Source: Aquimarina spinulae (GTDB lineage: Bacteria > Bacteroidota > Bacteroidia > Flavobacteriales > Flavobacteriaceae). Taken from it: a stretch of DNA of 64,000 bases. Every line of letters begins with the position of its first letter. Position 1 is the first letter of the stretch. Under the pieces are notes generated by a model, which saw nothing but the letters and a program-made list of their open reading frames with translations, ran no database searches and had not been told where the DNA came from. This document shows, one piece after another, positions 7,552-38,073 of this stretch. Made by a program: the position numbers and the translations under genes. The stretch covers positions 62,001-126,000 of the forward strand of contig NZ_CALSBP010000003.1 in NCBI RefSeq assembly GCF_943373825.1, read 5' to 3'.

Positions 7552-8265
7552 TTAATCATTCCAGGTTTTAAGATCACTAATTGGGATTCCGAAACCAAGT
7601 AATTTATGATGTTGAGAGAGGTGCGCTCCTGTTTTTGTAGTTATCCAGTTTTCCCAGGTAGCTTCGAGCCCTCCAATCGGAATGATTGATACCCACATTT
7701 TATAACTTGTAGGTCTATAGTTCTTGTCAACTTTCCAGAGGTACGAATCTCCGGGAGTAGTTCCTCCAGATTGGTAGGTAACCAACAATCCTTTAGTGTC
7801 GTTTTCTAAGGTTACTAATTTACGAATCGTTCCTTTGTCAAAAAGCTTATGAGGAGCAATCAACCAAAAAGAGTCATTGTTAAAGTTCACCAATGCTTTT
7901 TCTATTATTTTTTTCTTTTTATGATCACCAAGATGCATTGTACTAAGTACTCGGTTTTTTTCTGGAGAATCCAAATGTAAAAGTACGGAGTGATCGTCTA
8001 TTTTTACAGTTACAGTATTAGATTTTTTATCCCAGAGATAATGGTTTTTATTTCTAAAAGTCCATTGTAAATAATCGGTATTTAGATAGTTATCATGCTT
8101 AATAGCATCTAGTATTTTTAATGCAAATTTATCAGCTTCAGGGCCAGGTTTTCCTTCAGGAAGTTTTTCATGTAAAGAAAAATATAAGGTCGCAACCGTA
8201 ATAGCTACCAATGCGAGTATGCTTAGTAGTAGTATTTTAAAAAGCTTTATAAATTTTTTTCTCAA
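7552..8265 (-). CDS. Membrane-anchored protein of unknown function
   Basis: A 237-residue protein not assigned with certainty. A single N-terminal hydrophobic segment at about 9-29 follows a basic start (MRKKFIKLFK), giving a signal anchor or uncleaved signal with the body in the periplasm. The remainder is rich in Trp, Lys and beta-prone stretches (LQWTFRNKNHYLWD, SYLWKVDKNYRPTSYKMWVSI), reminiscent of LolA-like or DUF6503-like beta sheets. No catalytic motif is visible. It is convergent with the metalloprotease gene and 162 bases downstream of aroB on the same strand. Treat as hypothetical. Confidence 0.65.
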   Translation of the reverse strand: MRKKFIKLFKILLLSILALVAITVATLYFSLHEKLPEGKPGPEADKFALKILDAIKHDNYLNTDYLQWTFRNKNHYLWDKKSNTVTVKIDDHSVLLHLDSPEKNRVLSTMHLGDHKKKKIIEKALVNFNNDSFWLIAPHKLFDKGTIRKLVTLENDTKGLLVTYQSGGTTPGDSYLWKVDKNYRPTSYKMWVSIIPIGGLEATWENWITTKTGAHLSQHHKLLGFGIPISDLKTWND

Positions 8266-8427
8266 GAAGTTGTGTTTTAGTATGTATTGTCTTTTGCTAA
8301 TGTAATGAAATACTAAGAGTGTAGCTTCTCAATATTATGAATAATAGCGTACTTTACAGAAATAGATATTACCGTTTAAATCACTTCAATCATAAAATAT
8401 AAAATCATTATTCCTTAATACTCAAAA

Positions 8428-9498
8428 TCATAAAGAAGCATAATACTCAAAAGATGTAAGAATCAATTCATCCGATACAATACAGTTGTATTTTGCTTCA
8501 CCAATAGTATTTAGTAGAACAAAGTAAATATTTCCATTCTCATTCTTTTTATCATGAATAAGAAGTTCCATAATTTTTTTATAATCTCCTGCATCAATAT
8601 CTATTTTTGGAAATGTAGCCAAAATTACAGCGCTAATATGTTCCAAATCTTCTTTGGTTAAAGAAAGTAATTCTTTAGATATATAAGCCTCCATAATCAT
8701 CCCTATTGCAATAGCTTCGCCATGAAGTAATGTAGGTTTTTCGGGATGAGTTAGATAAAAAGATTCGATAGCATGACCTAGTGTATGGCCATAATTAAGA
8801 TACTTACGAATATTTTGCTCGGTAGGGTCTTCAGAAACAATTTTGTTTTTGATCACTACAGAGTCATAAATCATTTGATCCAAATCTTCAAAATTAAGTT
8901 GAGAAAGGTCACTTATTTTTTCCCAATATCCCCGATCTTGAATGAGTCCGTGTTTTAGCATTTCGGCAAATCCGCTACACATTTGATTTACCGGTAAAGT
9001 AGCCAGATATTCTGTGTCAACAAGAACCATTTCGGATTCACTGATCACACCTACCATATTTTTTAGGTTACCTAAATCAACACCGGTTTTTCCCCCTACA
9101 GAGGCGTCTACCATTGCCAGTAGTGAAGTTGGGATATTGATATAACTAATTCCTCTTTTATAGGTACAAGCTATAAAACCACCCAGGTCTGTAATAACAC
9201 CACCTCCCAGATTAATCATTAGACTTTTTCGATCCATACCTAATTCTGAGAGCGCATTCCAGATACCGCTACATGTTTCGATATTTTTATGGATTTCACC
9301 ATTTTCTATTTCAATCACTTCGATATCATACTCTTTCTCAATCTTACTCATCAATAAAGATAAACAGTGCTCATGGGTATTATCATCCACGAGGATACAT
9401 ATTTTTGAATGGTTGGCTTTTTCGAGATATGCGTTCAATGCTGTATAGCATTCTTCACCAAAATATACAACAGAGTCTTTTGAAACTATGGGCTTCAT
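8428..9498 (-). CDS. aroB: 3-dehydroquinate synthase
   Basis: Second step of the shikimate pathway: cyclises DAHP to 3-dehydroquinate using NAD and a divalent metal. At 356 residues it has normal length. Visible family motifs are the NAD-binding GGGVITDLGGF at 98-108, SLLAMVDASVGGKTGVD at about 125-141, the metal-ligand region FAEMLKHG, and the histidine motifs YGHTLGHAIE and LLHGEAIAIG. The ATG (MKPIVSKDS) is divergent from the proline dehydrogenase gene across a 150-base spacer. Confidence 0.96.
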   Translation of the reverse strand: MKPIVSKDSVVYFGEECYTALNAYLEKANHSKICILVDDNTHEHCLSLLMSKIEKEYDIEVIEIENGEIHKNIETCSGIWNALSELGMDRKSLMINLGGGVITDLGGFIACTYKRGISYINIPTSLLAMVDASVGGKTGVDLGNLKNMVGVISESEMVLVDTEYLATLPVNQMCSGFAEMLKHGLIQDRGYWEKISDLSQLNFEDLDQMIYDSVVIKNKIVSEDPTEQNIRKYLNYGHTLGHAIESFYLTHPEKPTLLHGEAIAIGMIMEAYISKELLSLTKEDLEHISAVILATFPKIDIDAGDYKKIMELLIHDKKNENGNIYFVLLNTIGEAKYNCIVSDELILTSFEYYASL

Positions 9499-9561
9499 AT
9501 AGTATTAAATTATAGGGAGCGAAATTAAGCAGAATTTATAATAAAATAAACTCGCAAGTTC

Positions 9562-9569
9562 TATATTTG
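9562..9569 (+). promoter_or_regulatory. Candidate -7 element TATATTTG for proline dehydrogenase
   Basis: Exact match to the Bacteroidota -7 consensus TAnnTTTG, 79 bases before the ATG at 9649. No clear TTG appears at the usual -33 distance, so only the -7 half is supported. Confidence 0.45.
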
Positions 9570-9648
9570 CAGATATCTTAAAATAAGTGCAATGTATGCA
9601 TAAGAATTAATCGTATTTCTATGTGCATATTTTTAAAATTAACTTTTG

Positions 9649-10821
9649 ATGAACCAAAACAATTTGTTTGATAATACTGAGACTGCATTTACCTTGAAAA
9701 GCGACTCAGAGCTAGAAAGAGCGTACTTTCTGTTTAAAATGATTTCTAATGAACCTTTGGTTAGAATAGGAACTGCGGTTACTAATTTTGCTATAAAAGC
9801 ACATTTACCAGTTCAAGGATTAATTAGAGCTACTGTTTTTGACCATTTTTGTGGAGGAGTTAGTGAAGAAGATTGTTTATCGGTAGTAGATAATATGTAT
9901 GGCAAGAAGGTGTGTTCTGTATTAGACTATTCGGTAGAAGGAAAAGAAGAGGAGGCCCAATTTGATGCAGTGTTAGAAAAAACGATAAAACTCTTGGAGT
10001 TTGCAGATCAAAAAGACGCAATGCCTTTTGGAGTATTTAAACCTACGGGGTTTGGTCGTTTTTTAATTTGGCAAAAGAAAACCGAAGGAACTCCTTTAAA
10101 CGCAGAAGAGGAAAAAGAATGGGAGCGTATCGAAGAACGTTTTGATATGGTGTGTAAAAAAGCCCATGATTGCGATGTAGCGTTACTGATTGATGGAGAA
10201 GAGAGCTGGATGCAGGATGCTGCTGATGAATTGGTGGCAAAAATGATGAGAAAGTACAATAAAGAAAAAGCAATAGTATATAATACATTGCAACTTTATA
10301 GACACGATCGTCTGGAGTATTTACAAAAATTACACGAAGAAGCACGAGTATATGATTTTAAGATTGGTGTAAAAATTGTGCGTGGCGCATATATGGAAAA
10401 GGAAAATGAACGCGCTAAGGAAAAAGGATATCCTACTCCTATTTGTAAAGATAAACAACATACAGATCAGAATTTTGATACTACAATGAAATATATTCTT
10501 GAAAACATAGAGGATATCTCTGTTTTTATAGGAACGCATAATGAAGATAGTAGTTACCTGGCGATGAAGTTAATGGCAGAACTTAATATCGGTAAAGATG
10601 ATTTTAGAGTTTGGTTTGGTCAATTGTATGGAATGAGTGACCATATAAGTTTTAATCAGGCTGCAGAAGGATACAATGTGGCAAAATATTTGCCTTTTGG
10701 CCCTGTACGGGATGTAATGCCATATCTAATTCGTAGAGCAGAAGAAAATACTTCGGTTGCCGGACAAACCAGCAGAGAATTGAACCTACTTTCTCAAGAA
10801 AAGAAAAGAAGAAGACTATAG
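9649..10821 (+). CDS. Proline dehydrogenase
   Basis: A 390-residue stand-alone FAD-dependent PRODH-type enzyme, which oxidises proline to pyrroline-5-carboxylate. The beta/alpha barrel is recognised by VRGAYMEKE (about 245), FIGTHNEDS, WFGQLYGMSD and the C-terminal substrate-binding signature RRAEENTSVAGQ. The frame also opens at a TTG directly before the ATG (9646); the ATG at 9649 (MNQNNLFDN) is the better start. It lacks the aldehyde dehydrogenase half found in PutA, so the second step must be encoded elsewhere. Upstream aroB is divergent, and the downstream VOC gene follows after 82 bases. Confidence 0.93.
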   Translation: MNQNNLFDNTETAFTLKSDSELERAYFLFKMISNEPLVRIGTAVTNFAIKAHLPVQGLIRATVFDHFCGGVSEEDCLSVVDNMYGKKVCSVLDYSVEGKEEEAQFDAVLEKTIKLLEFADQKDAMPFGVFKPTGFGRFLIWQKKTEGTPLNAEEEKEWERIEERFDMVCKKAHDCDVALLIDGEESWMQDAADELVAKMMRKYNKEKAIVYNTLQLYRHDRLEYLQKLHEEARVYDFKIGVKIVRGAYMEKENERAKEKGYPTPICKDKQHTDQNFDTTMKYILENIEDISVFIGTHNEDSSYLAMKLMAELNIGKDDFRVWFGQLYGMSDHISFNQAAEGYNVAKYLPFGPVRDVMPYLIRRAEENTSVAGQTSRELNLLSQEKKRRRL

Positions 10822-30490: not shown

Positions 30491-30564
30491 TTAATCTCAA
30501 AAAATGAGATTAACTTATTGCTTATAAAAAAACTTATAATGAATTTTCATTATAAGTTTTTTTT
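30491..30564. terminator. Two hairpins between convergent sucD and the anti-sigma-like gene
   Basis: TTAATCTCA/TGAGATTAA (30491-30513) is followed by a near-perfect 19-bp stem (30525-30564) whose core ACTTATAATGAA pairs with TTCATTATAAGT over a two-base TT loop, flanked by A-tract and T-tract. Symmetric A/T flanks make it a bidirectional terminator serving both converging genes. Confidence 0.88.
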
Positions 30565-31360
30565 ATAGCTTACTTAAAAGCTCTGATGCTTCTTTAAATT
30601 TATAATTACTTGAAGACTCTGTAATTTGGAGTAATATATTCTTTGCTTTTGATATGTCATTCTTTTTAAGAAATAATAAAGCTTTATACCATTTACCTTT
30701 AGGACTGTCTATAAACTTGTTTTCTATTAGTGTATTAAAACTAATTTCTGCCTTGTCAAATTGTCTTAGTTCCATTTGAGAAATTCCAGTATAAAGATAT
30801 ATGGTTGCTCTATTCTCTTGAGCATTAGAAAGTTCTTCTTCTAAAATATCCAACGATTGCTCATATTCTTTAGCTTCAAATAATTTTTGCGCTTTGATTA
30901 GTAATTTTTGTTCACTATTACCCCGATCTACTAAAGAAGGTAGTTCTGATAAATCTAAATAATATGCATATAGTTTATTAGGAGAAGTTTTAAAAGGAGA
31001 AAAAAGGGTAAGACCAATAATAACCAAAATAACTGCGATACCTGTGTATAAAAGCCAAGATTGATTTCTTTTCTTTTGTTGTAGCTGATATTCAGAATTT
31101 ACTATATGTAATGTATCTTTTAGTGTTTGGGTTGATTCACTTCTAAATAATACTTCATACTCATCAATTTCAGAATAGTTGGTATTGCTACTAATACTCC
31201 ATTCAGAATCATTCAAATTAAGAATGAGTTGTTTCTCAAAATTAACTTTTTCAAGAAAATCTTTATCACTTTCCATTCTTGACAAAACCAGATCTCTTTC
31301 TTTTTCTGTAAGTTTGTTATTTAGAAAATCCTGAATTAATATTTGTTCATCTATACTCAT
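30563..31360 (-). CDS. Membrane TPR protein, candidate anti-sigma factor
   Basis: A 265-residue protein. The first 50 residues (LIQDFLNNKLTEKERDLVLSRM...) look like the N-terminal helical domain of Bacteroidota anti-sigma proteins, without zinc-binding Cys. One membrane helix spans about 102-121. The rest is periplasmic and TPR-like (LLIKAQKLFEAKEYEQSLDIL, TIYLYTGISQMELRQFDKAE). Its ATG overlaps the stop of the sigma gene by four bases (ATGA), so the two are translationally coupled. The anti-sigma role is inferred from topology and coupling. Confidence 0.75.
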   Translation of the reverse strand: MSIDEQILIQDFLNNKLTEKERDLVLSRMESDKDFLEKVNFEKQLILNLNDSEWSISSNTNYSEIDEYEVLFRSESTQTLKDTLHIVNSEYQLQQKKRNQSWLLYTGIAVILVIIGLTLFSPFKTSPNKLYAYYLDLSELPSLVDRGNSEQKLLIKAQKLFEAKEYEQSLDILEEELSNAQENRATIYLYTGISQMELRQFDKAEISFNTLIENKFIDSPKGKWYKALLFLKKNDISKAKNILLQITESSSNYKFKEASELLSKL

Positions 31361-31920
31361 AGTTTTTTTAGAGAATTATAGCGTTCATCGTTTTTGATTA
31401 CTTCAGATAATTTTGCTTTACATTTAAAAACACGCTGTCTGGCAACGGTTTCAGAATTATACCCCATTGTTTTTACAATATCTTCATAAGAAGTATTATT
31501 AAAAAACAGGGTTAATATTTTTTTACAATTATCTGAGATTAAATTCAATTTTTCGGTGAATAATTCCCATCTTTTTTGTTCTAGAATTGATAATGCGAGA
31601 TTACGTTCGGCAGGTACTAGTTCAATAATTTCACTATTTGTTACCCTGTTTTTTGAAATTTTTAATTCTCTACGCCATAAATTTTTACAAGAGGTAAATA
31701 AATAGGCTTCAAAACTACTCTTGATTTCAAATCTTTCTTTACGGTATCGAACGGTAATCTGCAACAAAGCCTTTTGAAAAATATCTTCGGCATCCTGTTG
31801 TTGTCCTTTATTTTGTAGAATAAATTTTCTAACTCTAGGAAATACCAGGTTATAGATGTTCATGATTCCTTTAGAGTCATTATTAAGTAAACTGGTAAGG
31901 TGTTGCGTTTTTTCCGTCAT
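31357..31920 (-). CDS. ECF-type RNA polymerase sigma factor
   Basis: A 187-residue sigma-70 family protein. Region 2 is recognised by QQDAEDIFQKALLQITVRYRKE and FEAYLFTSCKNLWRREL; region 4 by ISDNCKKILTLFFNNTSYEDIVKTMGYNSETVARQRVFKCKAKL. The frame extends one codon to a TTG, but the ATG at 31920 (MTEKTQHLTS) is chosen. It is divergent from the lipoprotein/CHAT pair and coupled to a membrane TPR protein, the arrangement of a sigma/anti-sigma switch. Confidence 0.9.
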   Translation of the reverse strand: MTEKTQHLTSLLNNDSKGIMNIYNLVFPRVRKFILQNKGQQQDAEDIFQKALLQITVRYRKERFEIKSSFEAYLFTSCKNLWRRELKISKNRVTNSEIIELVPAERNLALSILEQKRWELFTEKLNLISDNCKKILTLFFNNTSYEDIVKTMGYNSETVARQRVFKCKAKLSEVIKNDERYNSLKKL

Positions 31921-31967
31921 CAAAAAATAGTGAATCTTTATATGCGAAAATAATTTTTTTATCTTCG

Positions 31968-32001
31968 TTTGGGTAACAAAATTGATGTTTTGGTAACTGA
32001 T
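31968..32001 (+). promoter_or_regulatory. Bipartite motif upstream of the lipoprotein/CHAT pair, candidate ECF promoter
   Basis: TTTGGGTAACAAAAT (31968-31982) is followed after eight bases by TGGTAAC (31991-31997). The same 15-mer with TGGTCAC at the same 20-base offset occurs at 35178-35207 before the GG-peptide gene. GTAAC-type -35 elements are common for ECF sigma factors, so the adjacent sigma factor is the natural candidate to read it. It could instead be a direct-repeat operator. Confidence 0.55.
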
Positions 32002-32036
32002 AAGGTGAAAGTAAATTAATTTATAAAATTATAGAG

Positions 32037-32429
32037 ATGAAAAGAAGTTTTTTTTTTAATATAGTATTGATTATATGTGCATTTTTGTCTGTAATAAGTT
32101 GTACATACGATACCGATATACCTTATAATGTTACTAAAGAAACAGACGTTAAGCAGGTACGTGCAGTTAGAACTATGGAAATTTTAATTGAATATAGAAA
32201 AGGAACTTCGGAATATAATAAAGAAAAAATTCGTGGCAATTACATCGGTACCGGTCTGTTATTAAGTTGGGAAGGATGTGAAATAGAGGATAATGACGAT
32301 GTTGAAGTTTGGGTAGTAGATGCTGAAATTTATGCGTCATACCGACCTGCACCACTTAATGATCCAGATAAAGAAGATATGGATAAAGTGACTTTGAATG
32401 CTAACTGTAAAGACTATAAGGAAGATTAA
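32037..32429 (+). CDS. Small lipoprotein of unknown function
   Basis: A 130-residue protein with a signal peptide and lipobox ending VISC (Cys22). The mature part (about 108 residues) has a beta-rich pattern (VRTMEILIEYRKGTSEYNKEKIRGNYIGTGLLLSWEGCE) and three further Cys-type positions near the end. I do not recognise a family. Its stop is two bases before the TTG start of the CHAT gene, so it is very likely translated in concert with it. Confidence 0.75.
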   Translation: MKRSFFFNIVLIICAFLSVISCTYDTDIPYNVTKETDVKQVRAVRTMEILIEYRKGTSEYNKEKIRGNYIGTGLLLSWEGCEIEDNDDVEVWVVDAEIYASYRPAPLNDPDKEDMDKVTLNANCKDYKED

Positions 32430-32431
32430 TA

Positions 32432-35173
32432 TTGAAATCATATATATTTCTTTGGATAGGCTTCTTGTGTATAACAATAAATGGTAATGCTCAGGATTTA
32501 TATGAATATTACGAGTCTTTATGGGATCGTAAGGATATCACTATTTCTAGTATTGAAAAAGAAGTTGATAGTATTATAGATCTTTATGAGAAAAAAGAAC
32601 AGTATTTGCATAGTATTAAAATCGCTCATGAATTTTCCAGAAAACTCTATCGAGAAGATTTGTATATAAAAGGAATTAGATATGTAGAATACGAAATATC
32701 AGTATATCGAAAGTTACATATAAGAAATAGTAAGTATGCAAAAGCTCTATATAATTTAGGGCTTTTTTATTCCTTTGTAAAGAATTTTGAAAAATCTATA
32801 ACTTGTTATCAAGAAGTAGTTGATATTAATACCGATGAATATAGTACAGCCAAAGCGTTTTGTGAATTAGGAAAGTATTATTATAAACGTGGGGATTTTT
32901 TTAAGTCAAAGGACTACTATTCTCGTGGGGTTACTGGTTTAGAAAAATTTGATAAAAAGAAACTTTTAATAAAAAAATATATAAATTATTCACGTGTTTT
33001 ATTTGAAATAGGTACTAAACACAGTTTAGATAAAATGTTGGAGATACTGGATAAGGCCAATCAACTTTTTTCTCTTATTCCGAATTATTCAGTACATGAC
33101 TATCGTACTTTGAATAACTACTATGGAATTTATTATAATACTAAAGAAAGATTAAATTTTGAAAAAGCCAGATATTATAGTTATCGAAATTTAAATAAAG
33201 CCATACAAGAGAATGATTCTACTTTTGTATATACATCGTATACCAATCTTGGGGATTTATATATGGATGCTAAAAATGAAGAACGAAAAGACAGTGTCCT
33301 CTTCTTTTTGAATAATGGATTGAAATATTCTCGAGGAAGAAAAGAGAAGTCTATAGTATATCATAATTTAAGTAATTATTATATAGAAAATAGCGAGTAT
33401 CAAGATGCACTTGATAATATTCAAAAGTCTCTAATTGAGAGCACTCATCTGGATCAGAATATCTCAACTTTACCTAGATTGAATGATTTAATAATTTCGG
33501 ATAATCAGTACTACATTTTACTAGCTTTGATTCAGAAAGCAACTATTCTTATAAAACTATATGAGAAAGAAAATAATAGTAAACATATTGAACTCGCACT
33601 TTCTAATTTGTTATCAGCAGATAAATTAGTTGATGTTTTACTCGATGTTAGCAAGGAAGAAAAATCAAGATTGAACTGGCGAAAAAAAGCTTCAGAAATT
33701 TATCTAAAGGGAATACTGATTTGTGAAATTCTTGATAAAGAAGAAAAAGCCTTTTATTTTTCAGAAAAAAAGAAAGCATTACTTTTAACTGAAGATATCC
33801 TTAAGAATACTGATAAATGGCAATTACCAGGTGAAGTATTAGAACTAGAAAATGAGCTTAAAAAGCAGATTCTAGATCTAGAAAATTTAATTTCTACTCA
33901 GAAAAATAAAGACAGTATTAAGAAATTAGAGCATAAGCGTTTCGAATTAAAACAACAATATCAGAAACAAGAAGACTCTTTACAAATAGTATTTCCAGAT
34001 TATTACAAAGAGAAAGAAACGACTAGCATAATTGATTTAAAGAAAATTCAAGAAACTTTAGATAAAGACAGTGTTATCATATCTTATGTTAGTAATATTG
34101 ATGATGATGATGATTCTTTTAGTGAATTGTATGCAGTTTTGGTTTCTAATACCAAAACAGAAATAATAAGAATAAGCGAATTAAAAGCTGTAGAAAAACT
34201 GATTAGAACATACAGAAATCAATTATCTAAACCTTTTGAGACAGAAGAAGATAGATTAAGATTTCAGGAAATAGCTTCCGAATTATATACTTTATTGATT
34301 CCAAAAGGTAAAATCTCAATGTCTTTGAATCAAAAACACCTTATTATAATTCCTGATGGTACTCTACAATATATTCCTTTTGAATCTTTAGTAATAGATA
34401 AGAATTCAAATCGATATCTTATAGAAGACAACGAAATAAGTTATGGGTATTCTATGTCTTTTTTACAGCATAATGCTACCGTAAAGAGAAAGCCATCTAT
34501 GAATTTAGTAGCCTTTGCCCCAGTAACTTTTGCACATAGCGATTTAGATGATATTACCAACAGTATCAATGAAATTAATGCTATAGATGATTATATATCC
34601 TTAAGTAGTTATATAGAAAAGGAAGCATCTAAACAAAATTTTTTATCCAAAATAGAGAACCATAAAATAATCCATCTGGCTACGCATGCTAATTTTTCGG
34701 ATAACCTTCAAATAGCATTTAATGATACTAGTTTAGAATATCATGAGTTATACACGTCCAGAAATCAAGCAGAATTAGTGGTATTAAGTGCTTGTAATAC
34801 GTCTTTAGGGAAAATAGCCAAAGGTGAGGGTGTTATGAGTTTGGCGAGAGGGTTTTTCTATGCAGGGACTAATACGGTGATTTCATCTCTATGGAGTGCT
34901 AATGATAAATCTACAGCTCAGATAATGGAAAGCTTTTATAGTAATTTAGATAAGGGGCAAACTAAATCTAAAGCTTTGCATAATGCTAAAATTGAATATA
35001 TAAACTCGACTTCTTTATCAGATGCCTCACCTCATTATTGGGCAACATTTGTATTAATTGGTGATTCAGAAACCAAATTATTTCCATCCAATAATCTCTT
35101 CTACGGGGTTATTTTATTCCTTTTTTCAGTATTGATAATCAGTGTTTTACTGTTTTTTATCAAAAAAAGATAA
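32432..35173 (+). CDS. Exported TPR-CHAT caspase-like protease with C-terminal membrane anchor
   Basis: A 913-residue protein. A signal peptide covers about 1-21 (ends GNAQ), TPR-like repeats about 60-340, a coiled coil about 465-520, and a CHAT domain about 640-890 with catalytic His752 (HLATHANF) and Cys788 (LSACNTS). One hydrophobic helix at the C-terminus (about 888-909, ending KKR) should anchor it, placing the protease in the periplasm. CHAT is a caspase-like (clan CD) domain; bacterial members cleave partner proteins such as gasdermins. The start is TTG, two bases after the lipoprotein stop; no ATG fits the signal peptide. The partner here is unknown; nearby lipoproteins and the GG peptide are candidates. 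Confidence 0.88.
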   Translation: MKSYIFLWIGFLCITINGNAQDLYEYYESLWDRKDITISSIEKEVDSIIDLYEKKEQYLHSIKIAHEFSRKLYREDLYIKGIRYVEYEISVYRKLHIRNSKYAKALYNLGLFYSFVKNFEKSITCYQEVVDINTDEYSTAKAFCELGKYYYKRGDFFKSKDYYSRGVTGLEKFDKKKLLIKKYINYSRVLFEIGTKHSLDKMLEILDKANQLFSLIPNYSVHDYRTLNNYYGIYYNTKERLNFEKARYYSYRNLNKAIQENDSTFVYTSYTNLGDLYMDAKNEERKDSVLFFLNNGLKYSRGRKEKSIVYHNLSNYYIENSEYQDALDNIQKSLIESTHLDQNISTLPRLNDLIISDNQYYILLALIQKATILIKLYEKENNSKHIELALSNLLSADKLVDVLLDVSKEEKSRLNWRKKASEIYLKGILICEILDKEEKAFYFSEKKKALLLTEDILKNTDKWQLPGEVLELENELKKQILDLENLISTQKNKDSIKKLEHKRFELKQQYQKQEDSLQIVFPDYYKEKETTSIIDLKKIQETLDKDSVIISYVSNIDDDDDSFSELYAVLVSNTKTEIIRISELKAVEKLIRTYRNQLSKPFETEEDRLRFQEIASELYTLLIPKGKISMSLNQKHLIIIPDGTLQYIPFESLVIDKNSNRYLIEDNEISYGYSMSFLQHNATVKRKPSMNLVAFAPVTFAHSDLDDITNSINEINAIDDYISLSSYIEKEASKQNFLSKIENHKIIHLATHANFSDNLQIAFNDTSLEYHELYTSRNQAELVVLSACNTSLGKIAKGEGVMSLARGFFYAGTNTVISSLWSANDKSTAQIMESFYSNLDKGQTKSKALHNAKIEYINSTSLSDASPHYWATFVLIGDSETKLFPSNNLFYGVILFLFSVLIISVLLFFIKKR

Positions 35174-35177
35174 TTTT

Positions 35178-35207
35178 TTTGGGTAACAAAATACTTATTA
35201 TGGTCAC
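35178..35207 (+). promoter_or_regulatory. Second copy of the bipartite GGGTAAC motif, upstream of the GG-peptide gene
   Basis: TTTGGGTAACAAAAT (35178-35192), then eight bases, then TGGTCAC (35201-35207). Spacing is identical to the copy at 31968-31997. It lies 4 bases after the CHAT stop and about 135 bases before the GG-peptide ATG. Confidence 0.55.
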
Positions 35208-35259
35208 AGGACAGCGTAATTATTAATAGGGAATCTTTTTTTCTTTTCTAATTATATCA

Positions 35260-35316
35260 AAAAATTCTTTCGCGAAGAATGGACATATGCTGTGAGTGTC
35301 TTTAAATGATCATAGT
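35260..35316 (+). repeat. 57-base regulatory module, copy 1 (before the GG-peptide gene)
   Basis: Copy 1 of a 57-base module that matches copy 2 (36442-36498) at 51 positions; the first 28 bases are identical. It contains the palindrome ATTCTTTCGCGAAGAAT (35264-35280; arms ATTCTT/AAGAAT) and, next to it, GACA-N11-TGTC. Both copies end shortly before a start codon (27 bases here), so an operator or leader role is likely. Confidence 0.8.
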
Positions 35317-35342
35317 AAATTTTAATTTTTAAAACATAAATC

Positions 35343-35540
35343 ATGTTAGAAAATATTTCAAGACTAGGGAAGGTCTTAAATAGAAAAGAGCAAAAAAAGG
35401 TATCGGGAGGGAGATTACTAAATATTAAAGTGATTACAGAAGTTGAAGATCAATGTCTAAATATTCTTGGGATGTCTGTGAATACAACAAGTTGTAATTG
35501 TGCAGATATTTCAGAGAATGACGAATTATGTGCGTTATAA
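35343..35540 (+). CDS. GG-leader peptide precursor (natural-product/bacteriocin-like)
   Basis: A 65-residue precursor. The leader MLENISRLGKVLNRKEQ followed by KKVSGG fits the double-glycine leaders of Bacteroidota natural-product precursors (bacteriocin-type, TIGR04149-like), with GG at 22-23. The 42-residue core holds four Cys (QCL, SCNC, LCAL) and is acidic at its end. No maturase, LanB/LanC, radical SAM enzyme or peptidase-containing ABC transporter lies nearby. Cleavage after GG is by family knowledge only. The zipper lipoprotein starts 57 bases downstream, probably in the same transcript. Confidence 0.75.
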   Translation: MLENISRLGKVLNRKEQKKVSGGRLLNIKVITEVEDQCLNILGMSVNTTSCNCADISENDELCAL

Positions 35541-35597
35541 GTTATTAGTCTACTATAAACTTTTTTTCTAACTATTATTAATATAAATCATAAAAAA

Positions 35598-36422
35598 ATG
35601 AAAACATTAAACTTTAATATACTTCAAAAATTCATCTTGATATTTTGTATATCTCTTTTCACCATAGGTTGCTCAACAGATAATATTGATAAACAAACGG
35701 TTGAGAGTTTAAATAATATTGATCAAAAACTAATTCAACAAGAAGAGTTAATGGATAATTCTGAAAATATCAGAAAACTAATAGGTTCTTTTGATTTTCT
35801 TTTAAAGAAATCTATTTCAAATCCAAAACTAAGCGATGAGGATTTAGGAAGTTTATTTATTGAAGAATCTAAAAAAAATGGATTAAGAATTGTTAAAATT
35901 CAACAAAATCAAAATAATCACCCAGTATTTTCAAAAGAGTATATCTATCTATCTAATAGTCTTCAAAAGACTAACAATTATGATACTAAAGAAGAATACA
36001 AAAATAGCTTAACTTCTTTACAAAGGGATGTCATAAATTCAAAGATGTCAGTTGAAGAAAAACAATTATTAGTAGACACTATAAGTTTTTTAGTTGAATT
36101 TACAGACTGGATGGAAACATTAAAAGATTCTAATTTAATAAAATTTAATTCTATAAATAAAAAAGACTGCGATGGATGGTGGTCGTGTTGGGGGTCATGT
36201 GTTGCGGCAACAATAGGAGGAGCATTAACAGGTGGAGTAGCTGGGTGCGCTGTTGGTGGAGCTGTTGGCGCAACTGCAGGAGCTGCAATAGCTGGCATAC
36301 CTAGTGCAGGAATAGCTACTCCTGTTGGAGCTGGAGTCGGGGCTGTTGTAGGGTGCGTTGGAGTAGGTATAGTTGGAGCAATAGGTGGTGGTTTAACTGC
36401 TGCATCTTCATCTTGTGGTTAG
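35598..36422 (+). CDS. Lipoprotein with Cys/Trp-rich glycine-zipper tail (copy A)
   Basis: A 274-residue protein. The lipobox ends TIGC at Cys25. The mature N-terminal part (about 26-190) is mostly helical and acidic (IDQKLIQQEELMDNSENIRKLIGS). From about 192 the composition changes sharply to GWWSCWGSC and then a long Gly/Ala/Val stretch with GxxxG spacing (GGALTGGVAGCAVGGAVG...) and several Cys, resembling class II bacteriocins and other glycine-zipper membrane peptides. It shares layout and short blocks with the protein at 36526. Function is unknown; a membrane-inserting tail is inferred. Confidence 0.75.
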   Translation: MKTLNFNILQKFILIFCISLFTIGCSTDNIDKQTVESLNNIDQKLIQQEELMDNSENIRKLIGSFDFLLKKSISNPKLSDEDLGSLFIEESKKNGLRIVKIQQNQNNHPVFSKEYIYLSNSLQKTNNYDTKEEYKNSLTSLQRDVINSKMSVEEKQLLVDTISFLVEFTDWMETLKDSNLIKFNSINKKDCDGWWSCWGSCVAATIGGALTGGVAGCAVGGAVGATAGAAIAGIPSAGIATPVGAGVGAVVGCVGVGIVGAIGGGLTAASSSCG

Positions 36423-36441
36423 AAAGCATAAAAATATTAAT

Positions 36442-36498
36442 AAAAATTCTTTCGCGAAGAATGGACATAAACTATAAGTGTCTTTAAATGTTTATAGT
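36442..36498 (+). repeat. 57-base regulatory module, copy 2 (before the second zipper lipoprotein)
   Basis: Copy 2 of the module described at 35260-35316, with 51 of 57 positions identical. Palindrome ATTCTTTCGCGAAGAAT at 36446-36462. It ends 27 bases before the ATG at 36526, the same distance as copy 1 from its ATG. Confidence 0.8.
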
Positions 36499-36525
36499 GT
36501 TAATACAATTAAAATTATATTAAAT

Positions 36526-37311
36526 ATGTTACACAAATCAAAAATTATAATAACGTTACTTTTAGGTTTTTTACTGTTTTCTTGTGCAGAAGACAATAAT
36601 AATGATTTACAAGAAAATCAATTAAAAACTATTTCTGATAGCTCTAAAAATGCTATTGAATATTGTACTACAATAGCTGATTCGAAAAACCCTTACAATT
36701 ATGTAGGTGAAATACATAATGAAATATTAAATGAATTTGTTCTTAATTATTCGGGAAAAAGATTGTCGGTAGATGAGATAGTTAGTATTGTTGAAGGTTT
36801 AGCAAATGAAAATCCAAGATTTTTAAGTATTAAGGATGAGGAAGCCCCTGTAGATCCATCAGATATATTGAGAGGAATTGATGATTTTGGAAATAATTTT
36901 CATAACATTATAAACGACCTGAGATTGTCATCACGTGCAAAAAATGATTTAAAAGTTTTAATTGATTATCTGTTTGATAACGCATATTCAGAGAGAGAAC
37001 CTAATTTTGATACAGTTCAAGGGGATTTAATTAGATTCGAGAATAATGCTCTTCAAAATAAAGATTATACTAGAGAGGAGAGAAAAACAATTTTATCTGC
37101 TATTTCTACGGCAAGATACTCAACATGCTATTGGTATAATTATTATAGCTCTATAAGAGTAGCTGATAATTCACTTGCAAAGAAGAGAAAATGGTGGCAA
37201 TGGCTAATAGTAGCTGCTGCAGATGTTGGTGGTACAATGGCGGGGACCATAGCTACAGGAGTGACTGCAAGCTCAACAGCTTACACCTATACAAATCCAG
37301 ACAATAAATAA
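36526..37311 (+). CDS. Lipoprotein with Trp/glycine-zipper tail (copy B)
   Basis: A 261-residue protein with lipobox LLFSC (Cys20). The frame opens 48 bases earlier at a GTG, but that lies inside the repeated regulatory module; the ATG at 36526 (MLHKSKIIITLL) gives a clean lipoprotein signal. A helical mature part precedes KKRKWWQWLIVAAADVGGTMAGTIATGV, a short Trp-rich and glycine-zipper segment near the end. Compared with copy A, blocks such as TREERKTILSAIS versus SVEEKQLLVDTIS align, so the two are diverged paralogues. Its tail is shorter and lacks Cys. Function is unknown. Confidence 0.72.
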   Translation: MLHKSKIIITLLLGFLLFSCAEDNNNDLQENQLKTISDSSKNAIEYCTTIADSKNPYNYVGEIHNEILNEFVLNYSGKRLSVDEIVSIVEGLANENPRFLSIKDEEAPVDPSDILRGIDDFGNNFHNIINDLRLSSRAKNDLKVLIDYLFDNAYSEREPNFDTVQGDLIRFENNALQNKDYTREERKTILSAISTARYSTCYWYNYYSSIRVADNSLAKKRKWWQWLIVAAADVGGTMAGTIATGVTASSTAYTYTNPDNK

Positions 37312-37342
37312 GAGATTGGTTTGTATAAATAGTATAACCCAA

Positions 37343-37418
37343 TTTTAAATAGTGTGAGTGTGAATTATGAAAGCTGTTTTAGTTTTATAATTCAAACTCA
37401 CACTCACACTATTTAAAA
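37343..37418. repeat. Long imperfect inverted repeat (possible bidirectional terminator)
   Basis: The left arm 37343-37368 (TTTTAAATAGTGTGAGTG...) pairs with the right arm 37387-37418 over 26 bases. The right arm carries a 6-base insertion, an extra ACTCAC-type unit, within a run of CACTCA repeats. An 18-base loop separates the arms. It starts 31 bases after the copy B stop. Most likely a terminator; a small mobile-element remnant is a less likely alternative. Confidence 0.7.
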
Positions 37419-37476
37419 ATACAGATTACATTTAAGTACTGGAATATAATATTTAGAATTCGTTTTATACACAATT

Positions 37477-38073
37477 ATGAAAATTTATTTAACCAAAATA
37501 ACTGCATTCTTTTTACTAACTTTTATGTTATTTAGTTGTGATAATATAAGTTATGATGGACATTTATATATAGTATCACGAAATTCAAAAAGTAAAGAAG
37601 GTAATTTAGTTTTAAAATACAATTCTACTCCTAACGATATTTCACATATTGGTATCACTTTTAGCAAAGATATTGATGCATATGTATATAATGTTAGTTA
37701 TGACAGTATTAATAGTTTTGGTTCTTCATTAATAAAAGAAAAATTAGATCTTTTTTGGTCTTCCCCAAATAAAGAAGATAATAGAATTTGGTCATTGCCA
37801 ATTAGCAAAGAAGAATATGAAAGATTGAAAGAGTATATAAAAAAACTTGAAAAAGAAAAGATTCATTTTGATTTTGACCCTAAAACCAATTTGGGGTTGT
37901 ATTGCTCAGAATTTGTTTATAATGCTTTAGTATTTGCTAACAACAAAAAATTTACAGTAAAACCTATAGGCAAAAAATTAAAAGGTTATGAAAGGTTAAT
38001 AACCAATGAAGAATACTTATCATATTATCCAGCGGATTTTTTTCTTGAATATTTAAAAATAAAAGAATTGTGA
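37477..38073 (+). CDS. YiiX-type permuted papain-like cysteine peptidase, lipoprotein
   Basis: A 198-residue protein with lipobox MLFSC (Cys21). The permuted NlpC/P60-like (YiiX/C92) layout is visible: His57 in DISHIGITF comes first and Cys142 in GLYCSEFVYNAL follows, with the closing YYPADFFLEYL. Such enzymes hydrolyse amide or ester bonds, in envelope lipids or peptides. It is last in the island, after the inverted repeat, and probably has its own promoter. Confidence 0.78.
   Translation: MKIYLTKITAFFLLTFMLFSCDNISYDGHLYIVSRNSKSKEGNLVLKYNSTPNDISHIGITFSKDIDAYVYNVSYDSINSFGSSLIKEKLDLFWSSPNKEDNRIWSLPISKEEYERLKEYIKKLEKEKIHFDFDPKTNLGLYCSEFVYNALVFANNKKFTVKPIGKKLKGYERLITNEEYLSYYPADFFLEYLKIKEL

Follow-up and report, generated by a model that had tools for sequence, protein, structure and literature searches.

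CHAT proteases are familiar as intracellular executioners. Csx29 acts in the cytoplasm, and in the CHAT-activated bacterial gasdermin systems the protease is encoded beside membrane-acting proteins. Among cis-acting RNAs, the preQ1 riboswitch is a compact H-type pseudoknot located in a 5' leader. Cleavage of a sigma factor inhibitor by a tetratricopeptide repeat (TPR)-CHAT protease is described for the Csx29-Csx30-CASP-sigma system of type III-E CRISPR (PMC10028731). The genome of Aquimarina spinulae (Flavobacteriaceae; RefSeq assembly GCF_943373825.1) contains an island that joins a CHAT protease of this general kind to secreted products. The island lies in a stretch of 64,000 nucleotides (contig NZ_CALSBP010000003.1, positions 62,001 to 126,000 of the forward strand), referred to here as the window. 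Genes for an extracytoplasmic function (ECF) sigma factor (SIG) and an anti-sigma-like protein (ANTI) are divergent from those for a lipoprotein (LIP0) and an exported TPR-CHAT protease, which are followed by a cargo of genes encoding a double-glycine (GG) leader peptide (GGP), two lipoproteins with Trp/Gly-rich tails (ZIP1 and ZIP2), and a papain-like lipoprotein (PAP). The flanking genes were named from sequence as sucD and an M16 peptidase gene. One reading, about as likely as not, is that the island is a proteolytic switch that senses the envelope and is coupled to a changing set of bacteriocin-like products. The leaders of two cargo genes contain a pseudoknot RNA that recurs in the family.

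The original prediction, made from the letters of the window, had a sigma/anti-sigma-like pair divergent from a lipoprotein and an exported TPR-CHAT protease, and profile matches bear out that arrangement. SIG was recognized by two families. The C terminus of ANTI gave a weak TPR-like match under the Pfam cut-offs, and it is by position and topology that the protein is called anti-sigma-like. The protease matched the CHAT family (PF12770, E 2e-56) and TPRs over cut-off, and its signal-peptide-like start leads into TPRs, the CHAT domain (catalytic residues His752, Cys788), and finally a transmembrane (TM) segment at the C terminus. His748, His752, and Cys788 were kept in all 76 aligned CHATs (the window's included), a C-terminal TM segment was present in 75 of them by simple hydropathy, and in 69 a pattern match found a small residue plus Q after the hydrophobic start, as in the Bacteroidetes Q-rule (PMC5837995). 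The predicted export of the enzyme is supported by these features. A search of solved structures with the CHAT sequence returned 32 matches, all of them TPR proteins or fusions, and did not recover Csx29.

The core of the island is conserved in related genomes, as the earlier reading had required of its neighborhood. The genus sample comprised 42 loci with 45 CHAT genes, most of the loci being chosen from the best CHAT matches among those listed. A lipobox-like gene was found by a loose pattern directly upstream of 38 of the 45 (for one of these, L068_6827, the upstream gene is a tandem CHAT caught by the pattern); five had no upstream gene found and two had an extended start. SIG was divergent within 6 kb for 38/45 genes and an ANTI homologue for 40/45. 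At a threshold of E <= 1e-70, the CHAT subfamily was present in 26 of 199 Flavobacteriaceae genomes, and 31 of the 33 CHAT places in that survey were read, leaving out the window's own and G134:C225. An upstream lipoprotein was found at 27/31, with two more (L217 and L225) recognized by eye, and within 6.5 kb on either strand SIG was near 26/31 and ANTI near 28/31 CHAT genes. Since this neighborhood recurs in many genomes, it is not the product of chance. The window island is the only place of the subfamily in its own genome. Across six orthologues, mean identity was 89.6% for SIG, 78.2% for CHAT, 75.7% for ANTI, and 60.5% for LIP0, the lowest of the core.

Table 1. Features of the island, in positions of the window.
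Feature	Position	Strand	Description
ANTI	30563..31360	-	anti-sigma-like, 265 aa; cytoplasmic N-part, one TM (~104-122, single hydrophobic segment by eye), periplasmic TPR-like part
SIG	31357..31923	-	ECF sigma factor, 188 aa; PF04542 29.7 bits (cut-off 24), TIGR02937 49.3 bits (cut-off 42.9)
Promoter-like motif	31968..31997	+	GGGTAACA-N-GGTAAC, before LIP0-CHAT
LIP0	32037..32429	+	lipoprotein, 130 aa, ferredoxin-like domain
Exported TPR-CHAT protease	32432..35173	+	913 aa, start codon TTG at 32432; His752, Cys788; C-terminal TM
Promoter-like motif, cargo copy	35178..35207	+	before cargo
Small hairpin	35264..35280	+	TTCTT..AAGAA, before pseudoknot copy 1
H-type pseudoknot RNA, copy 1	35282..35316	+	P1 35282-86/35296-300, P2 35289-95/35310-16
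GGP	35343..35540	+	GG-leader peptide, 65 aa, KKVSGG, 4 Cys
ZIP1	35598..36422	+	lipoprotein, 274 aa; helical domain, Trp/Cys/Gly-zipper tail ~188-274
H-type pseudoknot RNA, copy 2	36464..36498	+	leader of ZIP2
ZIP2	36526..37311	+	lipoprotein, 261 aa, Trp/Gly tail
Intergenic hairpin	37343..37418	.	terminator-like, between ZIP2 and PAP; 76 nt, 24-nt arms, 96%, folding z -9.0
PAP	37477..38073	+	YiiX-type papain-like lipoprotein, 198 aa

A link of the island to its sigma factor, which would control it as in the original prediction, is supported by a promoter-like motif common to the LIP0-CHAT and cargo units, which first appears as a 30-nt repeat at 31968 and 35178. Written as GGGTAACA-N11..17-GGTMAC followed by an A within 3 nt, the motif had two matches in the 6.24-Mb genome, at window positions 31971 (before LIP0) and 35181 (before GGP), and the reversed motif had none. 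When seven islands were compared, GGGTAACA preceded LIP0 in all seven, with an exact GGTAAC second half in six (GGGAAC in L057), and it also preceded the first gene behind CHAT in all seven, with an exact GGTMAC in five (AGTCAC in L054 and TGTAAC in L056). Both halves stood before all three cargo genes checked in L031, the island of Aquimarina sp. 2201CG14-23. GGTAAC occurred within 160 nt upstream of 28/38 LIP0 genes (shuffles, mean 0.58 and at most 4) and upstream of 23/373 other genes in the same loci. The pattern matched in 8 of 32 genomes searched. A third exact copy of TTTGGGTAACAAAA (C2:3748838) lacks the second half, and the motif is not taken to define a wider regulon.

In the eight orthologous islands compared, most of the gene content behind CHAT is exchanged from one island to another. 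In place of the GGP, ZIP1, ZIP2, and PAP genes of the window, L052 contains a GG peptide, a 547-aa lipoprotein, and a second GG peptide; L053 and L054 contain ZIP2 accompanied by PAP; L055 contains a 1,741-aa Rhs-like protein (PF20041, PF05593); L056 contains four GG peptides (the first by eye); and L057 contains two. The island of Aquimarina sp. 2201CG14-23 (L257/L031) encodes two giant proteins, of which the first had no Pfam match and the second matched an RHS repeat, together with one ZIP1, one ZIP1-like lipoprotein, and two GG peptides. Behind the Rhs-like second giant protein there is a small gene, as in polymorphic toxin loci. Overall, GG peptides were present in 5/8 islands, ZIP2 in 3/8, PAP in 3/8, ZIP1 in 2/8, and Rhs-like proteins in 2/8. 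Maturation genes adjoin the core in some loci. In L215 (5921-17494), from another genus, the CHAT core is followed by a C39 exporter (PF03412 over cut-off) and a grasp-with-spasm cluster for a ribosomally synthesized and posttranslationally modified peptide (RiPP), in which the ATP-grasp (336, cut-off 230) and SPASM (320, cut-off 175) maturases were over cut-off, an HlyD-type adaptor was under cut-off, and each of two GG peptides was preceded by a pseudoknot match (E 9e-6 for one and 0.003 for the other). In L037 and L064, a LANC_like gene adjoins a peptide with a lanthipeptide-like leader (NF038153, under cut-off in L037); L068 and L069 resemble these two loci by eye.

The leaders of GGP and ZIP2 share a 57-nt direct repeat, at 35260 and 36442, that contains an H-type pseudoknot of about 36 nt. 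Stem P1 pairs GACAY with RTGTC, and P2 is formed by the P1 loop and TTCAG-like bases past an A-rich stretch. Searching 52 sequences by nhmmer with five seeds gave 57 hits (last round, E <= 0.5), of which 55 were distinct and were aligned as A1. In A1, 91.2% of cells pair (80.5 in shuffled alignments), there are 83 double changes (25.7), and covariation is 0.389 (0.164); pair 15-37 occurs as six standard pair types with one break in 55, and the outermost P2 pair is unsupported, with 32/55 rows unpaired. A second alignment, A3, has 42 rows, namely window copy 1, 17 other copies from the same genome, and 24 copies from outside it, including one from the same genus; it leaves out nine own-genome copies already in A1 and the weak matches L128-L131, L154, and L156-L159, judged by eye. 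Its values were similar, with 89.4% pairing (78.4), 62 double changes (19.3), and covariation of 0.399 (0.179), and shifting the pairing partner by 1 to 3 columns removed most of the covariation signal in both A1 and A3. A hairpin similar to the small one before copy 1 preceded 21 of the 55 genus copies by a loose pattern. None of 4,227 Rfam models matched the island leaders or five other pseudoknot copies at E up to 1. Flavo-1 (RF01705), a known flavobacterial RNA named in PMC9723704 and PMC2864571, did not match the leader.

The element is mostly found before genes for GG peptides. Model R1 identified 26 copies in the genome at E <= 0.1 and 33 at E <= 10, and 21 of the 26 (L102-L127) precede a short open reading frame (ORF) with a GG leader. 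With the start taken as the first ATG opening at least 38 codons, the median distance from element start to ATG was 65 nt over the 26 copies. In L103, L111, and L125 the first ATG falls inside the element at 28 to 29 nt and a second ATG follows at 64 to 65 nt; when starts are taken at 55 to 80 nt, all 21 GG ORFs begin at 60 to 78 nt. For ZIP2, the ATG at 36526 is more likely to be the start than the GTG at 36478. The other five copies precede ZIP2, a GG-like peptide without the GG, an unclear stretch, a 260-aa lipoprotein, and (L120, C2:622451-622492) a GG-leader-like ORF (MLSNILNFTNGKT) that runs into a lipoprotein signal. At E <= 0.1 the pseudoknot matched in 32 of the 199 family genomes. 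Outside the genome of A. spinulae, and with starts preferred at 55 to 80 nt, a GG ORF lay behind 19 of the 29 best hits fetched; at E <= 0.007 the figure was 17 of 22. In a class-wide sample searched with model R2 under stricter filters, 4 of 395 genomes matched at E <= 0.001, all from the same family. Elsewhere in the genome (L093, C1:57000-72000), four GG-leader peptide genes at 7726-9657 each have a pseudoknot leader of their own, and no CHAT gene was seen in that 15-kb stretch. The pseudoknot class may mark a genome-wide regulon of double-glycine peptides and companion lipoproteins in the Flavobacteriaceae, and a periplasmic sigma-CHAT branch lacking a subtilisin (S8) domain may have been recruited to drive such cargo, so that an envelope caspase circuit would control transcription and the pseudoknot translation. 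This proposal has about an even prospect of being right.

The S8-less branch is defined by the gene in the LIP0 position. The AlphaFold model of LIP0 contains a ferredoxin-like domain, and its pLDDT reaches about 90 or higher for residues 51-100. The same slot is filled in 24 other CHAT loci by a lipoprotein of 412 to 553 aa with a Peptidase_S8 domain (PF00082 over cut-off in 24/24); the one in L047, which was counted as S8, sits one 55-aa ORF further upstream of CHAT. A profile of 23 short LIP0s was compared with the region before S8 in six long ones. With signal sequences the probability was 97.5%, a score that includes the secretion signal, and with the domain alone it was 90% (E 1.6e-6), against 0.2% for the ANTI and SIG controls. 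This comparison relates LIP0 to the N-terminal domain of the S8 lipoproteins that occupy its slot elsewhere. No Pfam propeptide profile matched LIP0 at E <= 1. The Foldseek/VIA match of LIP0 was generic ferredoxin-like and does not prove I9. A quick, midpoint-rooted CHAT tree had 76 rows (24 S8, 50 short-LIP0, and 2 unlabelled), and a fully supported branch has 49 of the 50 short-LIP0 CHATs on the same side, L219 being placed among the S8 rows. A pseudoknot was found within 5 kb of 32/50 short-LIP0 CHATs and 0/24 S8 CHATs. With L047 taken as short the counts are 32/51 and 0/23 (Fisher P 7e-8), and with directly read LIP0s they are 28/44 and 0/23 (P 1e-7); genus loci were scored by nhmmer and the others by R2, and kinship reduces all of these counts to few independent events. 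The last comparison omits seven genus CHATs, including L047, that were labelled short without a read LIP0. L043, L048, and L060 have short lipoprotein genes, and L049 and two CHATs of L068 lie behind another long frame. The direction of change between the S8 and short-LIP0 states would follow from the midpoint root; with a root placed among the S8 rows, the branch that lacks the S8 domain would have lost it.

Because SIG, ANTI, and LIP0 are the constant partners of CHAT, they are better candidate substrates than the cargo. ANTI might well be the key substrate, LIP0 might be, and a cargo protein is improbable in that role. In the proposed mechanism, an envelope signal sensed via LIP0 and the TPRs would switch CHAT on, and the protease would cut the periplasmic part of ANTI or first cut LIP0 off itself. 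Freed SIG would then transcribe LIP0-CHAT and the cargo. The pseudoknot, about 25 nt before the start codon, would set cargo translation as a second, locus-independent control, and the GG peptides would leave via C39 exporters, with the cargo acting on competitors as toxins and/or immunity partners. The protease-to-sigma direction is drawn by analogy with Csx29-Csx30-CASP-sigma and with caspase/ECF/TPR conflict systems. It is somewhat unlikely that LIP0, and not the anti-sigma, is the direct partner of CHAT, which would remove the pro-like domain or be held by it. Under that alternative, the subtilisin lipoprotein would be activated in S8-type loci, and in short-LIP0 loci the domain would serve as an inhibitor, a folding helper, or a sensor for CHAT. 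The position of LIP0, mostly directly upstream of CHAT, the S8 domain in all 24 long LIP0s scanned, the domain-only profile match with its two low controls, and the weak conservation of LIP0 relative to CHAT are consistent with such a partnership, whereas the generic fold, the absent propeptide hit, and the contribution of the secretion signal to the higher profile score argue against it.

Several observations weigh against a switch that commands the whole cargo. PAP lies behind the strong intergenic hairpin, and no match to the promoter-like motif precedes it; given the stability of that hairpin, PAP may be its own transcription unit. Motif matches off the CHAT places read occurred in G002, G003, G004, G012, and for one of those in G015, and the reversed motif matched in G008, G009, and G018. 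Single-strand folding of the two leaders is unremarkable (z -0.4 and -1.0, from a program that is blind to pseudoknots). With 24 of the 26 own-genome pseudoknot copies outside the island and 18 of the 50 short-LIP0 loci having none found within 5 kb, the RNA and CHAT are coupled in part only. The cargo genes may be passengers that collect at a hotspot for insertion. One alternative is a CHAT core acting as a self-contained envelope stress or defense switch, with unrelated genes accumulating beside it. The S8-type loci, which keep the core with no pseudoknot nearby, fit this alternative, as does the placement of most RNA copies elsewhere in the genome. It is unlikely nonetheless: the same promoter-like motif precedes cargo in the orthologous islands, and repeatedly so in one, and CHAT and the pseudoknot occur together in 11 of the 199 genomes where 4.2 are expected (P 5e-4, with the lists intersected by hand and kinship uncorrected).

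The cargo genes themselves proved to be of the kinds originally predicted: a GG-leader Cys peptide, two lipoboxed proteins with Trp/Gly-rich tails, and a YiiX-type lipoprotein. In GGP, a short leader that ends in GG precedes a core containing Cys, as in double-glycine bacteriocin or RiPP precursors; no Pfam or NCBIfam family was over cut-off, and curated leader profiles were not reached. In PAP, H57 and C143-S-E were invariant in 10 aligned rows, as in YiiX-type permuted papain-like proteins. It had 23 database matches, one named YiiX-type by its source and the nearest (93%) labelled A. macrocephali, and no Pfam family was reached. ZIP1 had 32 matches at E <= 0.01, and a locus of Aquimarina sp. 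2201CG14-23 has a 69% ZIP1 match. Its W-W-x-x-W-G-x-C motif is invariant, with W194, W195, W198, C201, and C273 kept in 31 aligned rows in which the tail is also Gly rich; the structure model is confident for the helical domain and of low confidence for the tail. A relationship between ZIP1 and the Rhs-like protein in L055 was rejected, as the two share a Gly-rich stretch only. The S8-type CHAT locus L067 (5436-6975) has two lipoproteins, one with a Trp/Gly-rich end like that of ZIP2 but with no sequence match to ZIP2 at E <= 0.01.

ZIP1 was found in 2/199 family and 3/52 genus genomes, and a GG peptide immediately precedes it at three places, the window, L031, and G250 (L259). The G250 homologue, from another genus, is not at any CHAT place listed for that genome; a more distant homologue in G017 has no GG peptide right before it on the same strand. 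From these neighborhoods and genome counts, ZIP1 would be a companion of GG peptides, as a toxin component or immunity lipoprotein, more than of CHAT. The A. spinulae genome has a second, partial ZIP1 match, to a peptide of 74 aa that has a GG leader, is encoded near a C39 exporter, and resembles class IIc bacteriocins (PF10439, 25.6 bits, cut-off 27.1). The ZIP1 tail had no PF10439 match, and ZIP1 carries a lipobox, not a GG leader. Beside a C39 exporter in L263 (C3:688000-702000) are two adjacent Gly-zipper peptides of 70 to 74 aa, one of which has a GG leader and a match to class IIc bacteriocins close to the cut-off, along with HlyD-like and LanC-like genes recognized by eye; a simple pattern detected no pseudoknot upstream of these peptides.

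These data bear on the mechanism originally proposed, in which a periplasmic CHAT enzyme cuts the zipper lipoproteins to free membrane-inserting tails or processes the GG peptide. All of these proteins are predicted to be exported and are encoded behind the same promoter-like motif, the Trp/Cys/Gly tail of ZIP1 is invariant, and the end of ZIP1 resembles that of the class IIc-like peptide, a weak resemblance of low complexity. Cutting of the zipper lipoproteins finds no support, however, because they are not constant partners of CHAT: ZIP1 and ZIP2 occur in few of the orthologous islands, ZIP1 is in 2 family genomes and CHAT in 26, and the G250 gene follows a GG peptide away from the listed CHAT places. 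Processing of GGP by CHAT fares no better, since C39 exporters, with three such domains over cut-off in the genome and none inside the island, already explain GG cleavage and would be the ordinary route out. Both forms of this mechanism are now quite improbable. That the repeated leader is a DNA element, a binding site or mobile repeat, and not an RNA is very improbable: its copies are highly alike and its thermodynamic z-scores weak, but compensatory changes, a near-constant distance to start codons, and an excess of G-U over C-A in A1 (36:0 in P1, 39:14 in the whole of P2, and 33:4 once the outermost pair of P2 is set aside) fit an RNA of this strand.

The island can be compared with several described systems. 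Pfam scans of the eight island proteins found no gasdermin and no Cas7-11-type match (the whole genome was not searched for Cas7-11), and a PADLOC scan gave weak, scattered matches, none of them useful. Like the CASP/Craspase system, the island links a TPR-CHAT protease to an ECF sigma factor and a putative inhibitor, with candidate sigma sites in promoters of its own locus (PMC10028731). It differs in that its CHAT is exported and anchored, its anti-sigma-like protein has a TM segment, and it brings in both LIP0 and bacteriocin-like products; with signal-peptide-like starts in 69/76 and C-terminal TM segments in 75/76 by simple hydropathy and pattern, these CHATs are predicted not to be cytoplasmic. 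EACC2-type caspase conflict systems also combine a constant caspase domain with nearby ECF sigma and TPR genes and variable domains (PMC8195603), whereas the words lipoprotein and periplasm are absent from the main text of that source and no RNA leader was seen in passages of it. As in the CHAT-gasdermin systems, CHAT is encoded beside candidate membrane-acting proteins, but the zipper lipoproteins are not constant partners here. Bacteroidota double-glycine and RiPP loci (grasp-with-spasm and class I lanthipeptide-like) likewise have small GG-leader Cys peptides, C39 exporters, and maturases, which stand beside some CHAT loci; the island adds a sigma-CHAT core and a shared pseudoknot leader to such peptides. 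The long LIP0s resemble S8 subtilases with an I9-type propeptide in that their S8 domain follows a domain akin to short LIP0, whereas the window island has no S8 domain and the LIP0 domain is a candidate I9. The RNA resembles preQ1 in that a small pseudoknot lies in the 5' leader at a short distance from the start codon, and differs in its association with secreted peptides, not metabolism, and in having no Rfam match.

If a periplasmic, lipoprotein-coupled CHAT with swapped cargo is confirmed, caspase-like signaling would also control the secreted output of Gram-negative bacteria. Of wider use is the pseudoknot, which is backed by covariation, serves to find genes for secreted peptides throughout a large marine family, and makes their control testable. 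CHAT-sigma coupling, GG peptides, and cis-acting pseudoknots are already known kinds, and no description of this core with LIP0 or of this RNA was found among the open-access PMC titles and abstracts searched. By that measure, what this locus adds to the known systems is the combination of these kinds in the envelope, the split between S8 and short LIP0, and the pseudoknot RNA.

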